From assembly GCA_026125215.1 (NCBI GenBank), contig JAHCLN010000015.1, positions 1 through 39,552 of the forward strand: a stretch of 39,552 nt of DNA. Direction: 5' to 3'. The notes beneath the pieces are model-generated. The model was given only the letters and a program-made list of their open reading frames with translations. It was not told the origin of the DNA and made no database searches. The stretch's first letter is position 1, and each line of letters opens with the position of its first letter. This document shows, in pieces, positions 19,066 through 37,713 of this stretch. A program made the translations under genes and the position numbers. The DNA comes from Opitutaceae bacterium (GTDB taxonomy: Bacteria; Verrucomicrobiota; Verrucomicrobiia; Opitutales; Opitutaceae).

Positions 19066-19938
19066 GTGACCCACCCCGCCCATTCGCGCGCCATCGGCCA
19101 GTTGCTGCTGGCCGCGTTGTTTTGGAGCCTCGGCGGGCTGCTCATCAAGTCGGCCGACTGGCCGCCCCTCGCCGTGGCCGGCGGCCGGGGCATCGTCGCG
19201 GCGCTCTTCCTCGCCCTCACCAACCGCCGGCTGAAGTTCACCTTCTCGCCGGTGCAGCTCACGGCCGCCTTCGCGTATGCGGGCTGCACGGTTTTCTTCG
19301 TGGTGGCCACCAAGCTCACCACCGCGGCCAATGCCATCCTGCTCCAATACACGGCGCCGGTCTGGATCGCGCTGCTCGGCGCCTGGTTCCTCGGCGAGCG
19401 GACCCGGCGGTCGGACTGGATCATCATCGCCGTCGTGCTGGGCGGCATGACGCTTTTCTTTGCCGACGGCCTGGAGCTGGGCGGCGCTTTCGGCAACCTC
19501 ATGGGCGTCCTCAGCGGCGTGTGTTTTGCGGCCATGACCATCGCTCTGCGGAAGCAAAAGGACGGCTCACCGGTGGAATCCATCATCCTCGGCAACCTTA
19601 TCGCGTTTGCCATCGGCCTGCCGTTCATGATCGGCGTGCCGCCGCCCTCACCGACCGGCATCGCCGCCATCATCGCCCTGGGCATCGTGCAACTGGGCTT
19701 CTCCTACTGGCTTTATGCCCGGGCCATCCGGCAGGTAACGGCGCTGGAGGCGGTCATCATCCCGGTGATCGAGCCGATCCTGAACCCCGTGTGGGTTTTC
19801 CTCGCCCGTGGTGAAAAACCCGGCCGCTGGGCGCTGCTCGGGGGCATCATCGTGCTGACCGCGGTCACCGCCCGCGCCCTCCTCGCCCTGCGGCGCCCGG
19901 CCCCGCCCAACCCCGCCCGTTTGTCACCCAATAGGTGA
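19066..19938 (+). CDS. EamA/DMT-family transporter
   Basis: This protein of about 290 residues has ten predicted membrane helices in two EamA repeats (first repeat LLLAALFWSLGGLLIK and ILLQYTAPVWIALLGAWFLG; second repeat FGNLMGVLSGVCFAA, then AVIIPVIEPILNPVWVF). Such proteins export metabolites or amino acids; the substrate is unknown. No ATG is in frame at the start: GTG at 19066 is preferred and TTG at 19036 is an alternative. The final codons, LSPNR and stop, lie inside the left palindrome of the XRE unit, so the natural C-terminus was probably replaced or trimmed there. It is divergent from the multi-thioredoxin gene and converges on a second EamA gene. Confidence 0.85.
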   Translation: MTHPAHSRAIGQLLLAALFWSLGGLLIKSADWPPLAVAGGRGIVAALFLALTNRRLKFTFSPVQLTAAFAYAGCTVFFVVATKLTTAANAILLQYTAPVWIALLGAWFLGERTRRSDWIIIAVVLGGMTLFFADGLELGGAFGNLMGVLSGVCFAAMTIALRKQKDGSPVESIILGNLIAFAIGLPFMIGVPPPSPTGIAAIIALGIVQLGFSYWLYARAIRQVTALEAVIIPVIEPILNPVWVFLARGEKPGRWALLGGIIVLTAVTARALLALRRPAPPNPARLSPNR

Positions 19939-19944
19939 CAAACG
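19918..19944. repeat. Palindrome A1 (left flank of XRE unit 1)
   Basis: The arms CGTTTGTCACC (19918-19928) and GGTGACAAACG (19934-19944) are perfect 11-bp reverse complements around CAATA. The site supplies the last codons and TGA stop of the upstream EamA gene and lies 25 bp before the XRE start codon. It may be an operator for the XRE protein, a bidirectional terminator or an element end. Confidence 0.93.
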
Positions 19945-19969
19945 AGCGGGAGTTGCCCATGCTGGATAC

Positions 19970-20323
19970 ATGAACTCCATCAAAATACCCGATGGCCGCT
20001 ATGTGCTCGTCGATGGGCTTTCCGCCGCCGCCCGGGAATCAGCGCTGCGCATCAATCGTTATCTGATAGAACGTAGCCGGCGTCACGTCGGCGAAACGCT
20101 GCGTCCCGGACCACACACGCCGCTCTGGAACGCCTTCGTCAACTCGGCGCGGCCGCACCTGCACAAGCGCGGCGCCAAGATCCGGCTCGCCCGTCTCATC
20201 GGCGTGCCACGGCAGCGTATCCACGACTATTTGGTCGGCCGGGGCCGCATGCCCGACGCGGAGCGGATGCTGCTGCTGCTCGACTGGCTGGGCGCGCAGC
20301 ACCGCGGCTCCGACCGCTCCTGA
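19970..20323 (+). CDS. Small XRE-type helix-turn-helix protein, unit 1
   Basis: This 117-residue protein has an N-terminal region without a known name (about residues 1-45) and a linker with RPGPHTPLWN. A C-terminal helix-turn-helix of the XRE/Cro type follows: KIRLARLIGVPRQRIHDYL, then GRGRMPDAERML. No membrane segment, signal peptide or catalytic motif is seen. It is homologous over full length to the protein at 37325-37681; the last 39 residues through the helix-turn-helix are about two-thirds identical. The gene is enclosed by palindromes A1 and A2, which are the obvious candidate binding sites. No strong ribosome-binding site lies at standard spacing. The likely role is sequence-specific DNA binding and autoregulation; a role in moving the unit is possible but unproven. 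Confidence 0.82.
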   Translation: MNSIKIPDGRYVLVDGLSAAARESALRINRYLIERSRRHVGETLRPGPHTPLWNAFVNSARPHLHKRGAKIRLARLIGVPRQRIHDYLVGRGRMPDAERMLLLLDWLGAQHRGSDRS

Positions 20324-20334
20324 CCACCCGGCCA

Positions 20335-20357
20335 TTTGTCACCTATTGGGTGACAAA
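20335..20357. repeat. Palindrome A2 (right flank of XRE unit 1)
   Basis: The arms TTTGTCACC (20335-20343) and GGTGACAAA (20349-20357) are perfect around TATTG. This is A1 in opposite orientation, sharing 24 bp with it including one extra G/C outside the arm. On the minus strand it supplies the final LSPNR codons and TGA of the second EamA gene. It starts 11 bp after the XRE stop. Confidence 0.92.
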
Positions 20358-21230: not shown

Positions 21231-22405
<1,175 letters not shown>

Positions 22406-37291: not shown

Positions 37292-37322
37292 CGAAAGTGT
37301 AACCCAATGGGTTACACTTTCG
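37292..37322. repeat. Palindrome B1 (left flank of XRE unit 2)
   Basis: The 14-bp perfect arms CGAAAGTGTAACCC (37292-37305) and GGGTTACACTTTCG (37309-37322) flank AAT. The right arm contains an ATG (37307) that reads MGYTFA into the XRE frame, so the site overlaps the gene's possible start; the next in-frame ATG is 37325. Confidence 0.95.
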
Positions 37323-37324
37323 CC

Positions 37325-37681
37325 ATGATACCGATTCATCCCCGTCTCAAGCTGTGGCTGGATTTGGGTGATGCGCTCGCCGTGGCCGCAGAAACCGGCG
37401 CCCGGCGGGTGCACCATGCCCTGCATCGGCGGTCCCAGGCGGTGGGGCGAACCCGCCGGCCCGGATCGGCCACCCCCATGTGGAACGTCTGCACCACGCT
37501 GCTCCGGCAGGAACTCCAGATCTATGGCAGCAAGGCGCGCTTGGCGCGTTACCTCGGCGTGCCCCGTCAGCGCATCAATGACTTCCTGACCGGACGCCGC
37601 CGGCTGCCGGATGCCGAACTGACCCTGCGGCTGCTGCACTGGCTGGCGGAAAGCCGCGCCGGTCGGAACCCCGCGCTCTAG
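37325..37681 (+). CDS. Small XRE-type helix-turn-helix protein, unit 2
   Basis: This 118-residue protein is homologous to the one at 19970-20323 over full length. It has the same plan: a diverged N-terminus, an RPG-x-x-TP-x-WN linker and a helix-turn-helix, KARLARYLGVPRQRINDFL, then GRRRLPDAELTLRLLHWL. The putative recognition helix differs from its relative at few places (RQRIND against RQRIHD). ATG 37325 is chosen because it matches the length of the relative; ATG 37307, inside palindrome B1, would add MGYTFA. No ribosome-binding site fits either. It probably binds its own palindromes and autoregulates; any role in moving the unit is speculative. Confidence 0.82.
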   Translation: MIPIHPRLKLWLDLGDALAVAAETGARRVHHALHRRSQAVGRTRRPGSATPMWNVCTTLLRQELQIYGSKARLARYLGVPRQRINDFLTGRRRLPDAELTLRLLHWLAESRAGRNPAL

Positions 37682-37713
37682 CAAAAGTGTAACCCAATGG
37701 GTTACACTTTTGC
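37681..37713. repeat. Palindrome B2 (right flank of XRE unit 2)
   Basis: The 15-bp perfect arms GCAAAAGTGTAACCC (37681-37695) and GGGTTACACTTTTGC (37699-37713) flank AAT. This is the longest perfect palindrome in the window. It starts on the last base of the XRE stop codon and ends 46 bp before the dus ATG, so binding or hairpin formation here could affect dus expression. Confidence 0.95.

Follow-up and report, generated by a model that had tools for sequence, protein, structure and literature searches.

A small gene encoding a predicted XRE/Cro-like HTH protein sits between two copies of the palindrome that it appears to read. Within the Opitutaceae, genomes that keep such a gene carry about 20 dispersed copies of one palindrome class, while genomes without it carry few, and those more decayed. 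This looks like a previously undescribed partnership between a gene and a population of short repeated DNA sites. The window analysed was the whole 39,552-nucleotide stretch of contig JAHCLN010000015.1 (positions 1 to 39,552, forward strand) from the Opitutaceae bacterium assembly GCA_026125215.1. It contains two such units, termed unit 1 (19918-20357) and unit 2 (37292-37713), with the following features.

37292..37322 (no strand), left palindrome of unit 2, CGAAAGTGTAACCCAATGGGTTACACTTTCG, 15-bp arms, half-site GTAACCCA read towards the centre
37325..37681 (+), HTH gene of unit 2 (118 aa, stop codon included in the coordinates), with a predicted long N-terminal helix (residues 6-32) followed by a predicted four-helix Cro/XRE-like domain
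37565..37588 (+), codons of the predicted recognition helix (residues 81-88; Q82 with palindrome position -5, R83 with -4, N85 weakly with -6)
37601..37603 (+), codon of R93, the residue that co-varies with position -3 of the palindrome (R with C, Q with T, A with G)
37681..37713 (no strand), right palindrome of unit 2, GCAAAAGTGTAACCCAATGGGTTACACTTTTGC, 16-bp arms, overlapping the stop codon by one base
19918..19944 (no strand), left palindrome of unit 1, GTTTGTCACCCAATAGGTGACAAAC
19970..20323 (+), homologous HTH gene of unit 1 (50% identity over the matched part), between convergent EamA genes
20335..20357 (no strand), right palindrome of unit 1, TTTGTCACCTATTGGGTGACAAA

The arrangement at unit 2 described in an earlier note, made from the sequence alone, was confirmed. 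Both palindromes are perfect and odd, with core AAAGTGTAACCCAATGGGTTACACTTT, and their arms of 15 and 16 bp around one central base become 14 and 15 bp if the centre is counted as AAT. The stop codon TAG (37679-37681) shares its G with the right palindrome, and the AAT centre has the same orientation on both sides, as the note had stated. The gene, however, most likely starts at ATG 37325, where its homologues start, and not at ATG 37307 inside the palindrome. Unit 1 is also real, with a palindrome of its own, and an IS110-family transposase (21231-22175, minus strand) lies next to the EamA gene beside it.

The interpretation offered in the note was only partly borne out by our analysis. The palindrome-gene-palindrome layout was indeed a recurrent unit. 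The 3.46-Mb genome has four gene copies, each with its own palindrome on both sides (AAAGTGTAACCCAATGGGTTACACTTT, CAAAGTAACCTAATAGGTTACTTTG, GTTTGTCACCCAATAGGTGACAAAC and AACATTTCACTTAATAAGTGAAATGTT), and of 120 genomes of the same family 56 hold 1-8 homologues, in 33 of 49 genera, giving about 114 loci. Matching AAT-centred palindromes were found on both sides at 78 of 114 loci. With a stricter detector, AAT-centred palindromes on both sides within 300 bp occurred at 56 of 112 homologues and at 0 of 1123 control ORFs of 100-160 codons, which excludes chance. In 1.36 Mb, 84 of 92 perfect odd palindromes with arms of 10 bp or more had an AAT/ATT centre, although that stretch was chosen around the genes and so over-represents them. 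In contrast, the orientation of the AAT centre, which the note had used to distinguish the two units, was not informative, being inverted in 46 units and direct in 32 (p=0.14), and it flips between orthologous sites. The note had also set palindromes without a linked gene as a refutation. Genomes with a gene do hold many solitary palindromes, but these do not refute the finding, as they match the specificities of the resident genes and depend on a gene being present in the genome.

The family appears to be largely confined to the Opitutaceae. In 388 genomes of the phylum, strong hits were restricted to this family, with three weak hits outside it. A search for related loci with the single protein found nothing, while the same search with a nine-protein alignment returned named records that were mostly Opitutaceae/Opitutales MAGs, one with a title naming Akkermansiaceae. 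No homologue was found in plasmid and phage collections, and searches of the open-access literature found no description of this family.

No curated protein family reached its cut-off. The best Pfam hit was YdaS_toxin (PF15943), at 26.6 bits against a cut-off of 30, followed by HTH_3 and HTH_31, also below cut-off, and NCBIfam gave nothing above cut-off. An AlphaFold2 model built on 93 aligned family members predicted the long N-terminal helix (6-32) and a four-helix HTH domain (51-111), with a mean pLDDT of 82. Foldseek aligned mainly the HTH part to Cro/XRE proteins, the best being CylR2 with a probability of 0.99 but an E-value of only 0.28. PDB sequence hits to human DUX4 represent weak HTH similarity only. 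W53, G68, L73, E98 and W106 were invariant, and there was no Y1 Pfam hit and no conserved HUH motif or tyrosine. A role as a YdaS-like toxin or antitoxin is a remote possibility, since apart from the sub-threshold Pfam hit the compact unit has no partner gene, and PADLOC and PHROG gave no support beyond weak HTH hits; a PADLOC hit to Cas5 (E 0.007) was dismissed as chance.

Protein and palindrome were found to co-vary by a simple code. Across 80 gene-palindrome pairs, residue 93 matched position -3, counted from the centre, as R with C 32 times, A with G 20 times and Q with T 10 times; residue 83 was R with C at -4 and T, A or Q with A; and residue 82 was Q with A at -5. Such co-variation is partly shared ancestry, although relatedness was controlled for, in large part, by comparing pairs at least 50% identical. 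In these, residue 93 differed in 77% of pairs that differ at -3 and in 9% of pairs that do not, the strongest of all columns, and residue 83 was the strongest for -4 (53% versus 6%). For -5 and -6 the best columns in the close-pair test lay elsewhere, and those two assignments are thus weaker. Among individual loci (numbered with L, and genomes with G, throughout), L061 (R93, GTCACCTA) and L082 (Q93, GTCACTTA) illustrate the code, their recognition helices being otherwise the same, but as they are only 50% identical overall this is not a true single-residue comparison. L090 and L082, which are 74% identical, differ within residues 81-96 only at 85 (Q, H), and in the site at -6 (A, C). On this sequence evidence alone, it is close to certain that the encoded protein binds the palindrome.

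The same palindromes are scattered elsewhere in the genome. In the genome of the window, 36 places carry the class GTNACNYAATRNGTNAC, bracketing copies included, and these fall mainly into three types that match three of the four resident genes. In genome G117, of another genus, about 24 sites are of a third type, GTAACCCAATAGGTTAC, for which no matching gene was found in that genome; the gene may be missing from the assembly, lost or too diverged. One class, GTNACNTAATANGTNAC, was counted in all 120 genomes. The 56 genomes with a gene held 1094 copies (mean 19.5), while the 64 without held 46 (mean 0.72; Mann-Whitney p=1.3e-16), and the reversed pattern, used as a control, occurred three times in all. 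Bracketing copies are included in these counts but are few. Fourteen gene-less genomes still hold some sites and about a third of homologues have no matching pair, though part of this may reflect incomplete assembly. When one mismatch was allowed, the perfect fraction had a median of 0.59 in genomes with a gene and 0.26 in those without (p=3e-4, 68 genomes), a softer test than the first, since several of the gene-less genomes compared have counts near the control level. In the gene-less congener G073, orthologous sites look degenerate (GTCACCCGACGGATGAC; GCAACCTATTGGGTTAC), although another gene-less congener, G095, keeps a perfect one.

This distribution also bears on whether the palindromes could be REPs moved by a Y1/HUH transposase (RAYT) elsewhere in the genome, with the HTH gene as a passenger. 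Y1 transposases are present in 103 of the 120 genomes, and Opitutus terrae is reported to be rich in GTAG REPs, also within genes (PMC3733652). However, six genomes with the HTH gene and no detected Y1 gene still hold 62 sites (for example 32 in G047, 10 in G017 and 7 in G009), whereas Y1-containing genomes without the HTH gene have about 0.7 each. The flanks of solitary sites in the genome of the window show no shared tag and no GTAG lies beside the palindromes, while it is the HTH protein itself that co-varies with the sites. RAYT-driven movement is thus very unlikely. In genome G003, locus L058 (14437-14465, on a 5,957,605-bp contig) carries TGTGGCCGGAGTCAATGACTCCGGCTACA, which looks like a GTAG/GTGG-type REP, a separate palindrome family in the same genome.

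The half-site was far more conserved than its flanks. Between the close species G067 and G091, 23 orthologous sites differed at 1 of 230 positions lying 4-8 bp from the centre, against 5-6% at 51-300 bp, although the sites were found by their intact palindrome in G067, which favours conservation somewhat. At 12-15 bp from the centre, just outside the core, divergence was 13%, about twice the background. At one site both arms had changed together (AATGTCAC to AGTGTCAC), and at others the centre was flipped. In the genus of the window, orthologous positions in a beta-mannosidase and an epimerase gene keep a palindrome whose core differs between species. A beta-mannosidase palindrome with the same flanking protein sequence also appears in G117, where it may be part of the native coding sequence rather than an insertion. 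The elements are 17-51 bp long, and across the loci, at 9-25 bp from the centres, the arms often stay perfectly complementary, with locus-specific sequence, well beyond the region that an HTH dimer would need (arms of up to 24-25 bp), which binding alone does not explain.

A codon-usage classifier placed 5 of the 36 sites in this genome in frame within a gene and 13 in non-coding DNA, against 224 and 26 of 400 random positions. Sites thus favour intergenic DNA, but some sit inside genes without breaking the frame, for example in an epimerase, a DUF1446-like gene and a helicase (names read from the translations rather than from a family search). In the helicase, two relatives lack 13-16 residues that here carry the unit-1-type palindrome, so sequence was gained or lost there. 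The extra sequence is in frame but its ends are not exact, and no clean insertion of a single palindrome with both junctions was found. In-frame palindromes in protein genes are also a feature of Rickettsia palindromic elements and CGTC REPs, Rickettsia belonging to another phylum; no dedicated bracketed gene is known for those (PMC3733652), whereas here each palindrome set has its own gene.

Neighbouring sites were not found closer than 44 bp and clustered at 44-48, 54-59, 64-67, 76-79 and 87-91 bp. After pairs with similar flanks were collapsed, 66 pairs gave a period of 10.7 bp, with 0 of 5000 jittered sets as strong. Pairs in inverted orientation resemble REPINs. Same-face spacing is expected of interacting bound proteins and not of hairpins.

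An ordinary autoregulated XRE repressor, with the bracketing palindromes as its operators and the solitary ones as its regulon, would account for part of these observations. The protein has a predicted XRE-type HTH domain, a left palindrome was found at 73 of 112 genes with its centre a median of 39 bp before the start codon, and XRE proteins commonly bind palindromes before their own gene (PMC12565409). This reading does not, however, explain the second palindrome just behind the stop codon (median centre 24.5 bp), the sites inside coding sequences, the local arrays, or several independent sets per genome, and we consider it unlikely. In comparison with XRE/Cro/YdaS-type regulators, the HTH fold, dimer-type palindrome and proximity of gene and site are shared, while the protein falls below Pfam and NCBIfam cut-offs, its gene has a palindrome on both sides and there are tens of dispersed sites, also in genes.

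A recent hop of unit 2 was likewise not supported. It has homologous neighbours on both sides, beside dus, at loci in other genera (for example L020-L023, L025, L027-L031, L037 and L050), with different palindrome cores. It is therefore an old, vertically inherited locus, and its absence in G073, where DUF1648 and dus are about 15 bp apart, is probably a loss. At the site of unit 1, between the convergent EamA genes, G115 holds a single 51-bp perfect palindrome of another core (L133, 25-bp arms, a length that binding alone does not explain), and G073 a decayed one. Some paralogues do differ in location, and L093 and L094 share DNA only from about the left to the right end of the unit while their flanks differ. 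Movement of gene and terminal palindromes together as an autonomous insertion element nevertheless seems very unlikely, since there is no recognisable transposase domain, the units are few and diverged rather than identical copies, and unit 2 is syntenic across genera. In G091 about a dozen copies of the palindrome lie in the middle of a MITE of roughly 110-135 bp with inverted ends TATTACTCTGTTA/TAACAGAGTAATA (L286, L294, L304, L322, L325, L332, L333, L336 and L341), and one locus in G067 (L305, 2930-3400, contig C25) is a local array of about nine palindromes where G091 has one.

Taken together, we favour, as somewhat more likely than not, a model in which each unit encodes a small HTH protein that would bind, as a dimer, the palindrome bracketing its own gene, with each recognition helix and the loop after it reading one arm. 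In this view, the dispersed sites, often paired on the same face of the helix so that two bound dimers could touch, form a population that the gene keeps alive. Site sequence and protein specificity would evolve together, several orthogonal gene-plus-site sets would coexist in one genome, and sites would decay where the gene is lost. The sequences themselves show the bracketing, its recurrence across the family, the co-variation of protein and site, the dependence on the gene and the decay, the helical phasing, the constraint on the half-site and the in-frame extra sequence in a gene. Binding as a dimer, autoregulation through the left palindrome and cooperative pairing of dimers are inferred, binding itself resting on sequence evidence alone. 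That the gene maintains a genome-wide population of its sites is well supported by the co-occurrence and decay. New sites may arise by hairpin-templated copying, by carriage in MITEs, or by point mutation kept by selection for binding.

The main rival, less likely but not excluded, is a host-serving chromosome-architecture or global-regulator protein, comparable in behaviour to MatP/matS, SlmA or Noc, whose sites are kept because the cell benefits from binding. The strong constraint exactly on the half-site, the same-face spacing, the old locus next to dus in several genera and the presence of sites both in and between genes are in keeping with this. MatP, SlmA and Noc each have many dispersed palindromic sites, in and between genes, but their genes are not known to be bracketed by their sites or to occur as several orthogonal paralogues per genome. 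Against this rival, only 56 of 120 family genomes have a gene, with 1-8 paralogues of different specificity, the genes are tightly bracketed by their own sites, and sites occur in frame as extra sequence within a gene, inside a MITE and in local arrays.

The closest model is the REPIN-RAYT (REPtron) system, in which a trans-acting gene is likewise flanked by the palindromes, the palindromes form a dispersed population, often as pairs, and some lie inside genes (PMC3733652); RAYTs are old, vertically inherited genes, and genomes with them hold more REPINs (PMC8049555). Here, however, the partner is a predicted DNA-binding protein without a recognisable nuclease, HUH motif or catalytic tyrosine, there is no GTAG tag, the centre is AAT, the pairs are helically phased and the residue-to-base code is readable. 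We regard the arrangement as new because each known family considered failed at least one defining feature, although its overall behaviour resembles REPIN-RAYT and a more cautious reader may prefer to see in it a variation on that system. Tentatively, and short of even odds, it could represent a new class of self-maintaining site population, in which a nuclease-less HTH protein, encoded between two copies of its own binding site, both preserves and spreads a genome-wide set of helically phased palindromes, in and between genes, with several orthogonal sets per genome whose specificities follow a simple code.

If this is right, a population of short repeated palindromes can be kept for long times by a DNA-binding protein alone, without a transposase, which would change how repeated palindromes in bacteria are explained. 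The family also offers a ready-made natural experiment, with dozens of protein-palindrome pairs with a legible recognition code, gene-less sister species in which the sites decay, and a same-face spacing rule that is open to direct test at the bench.
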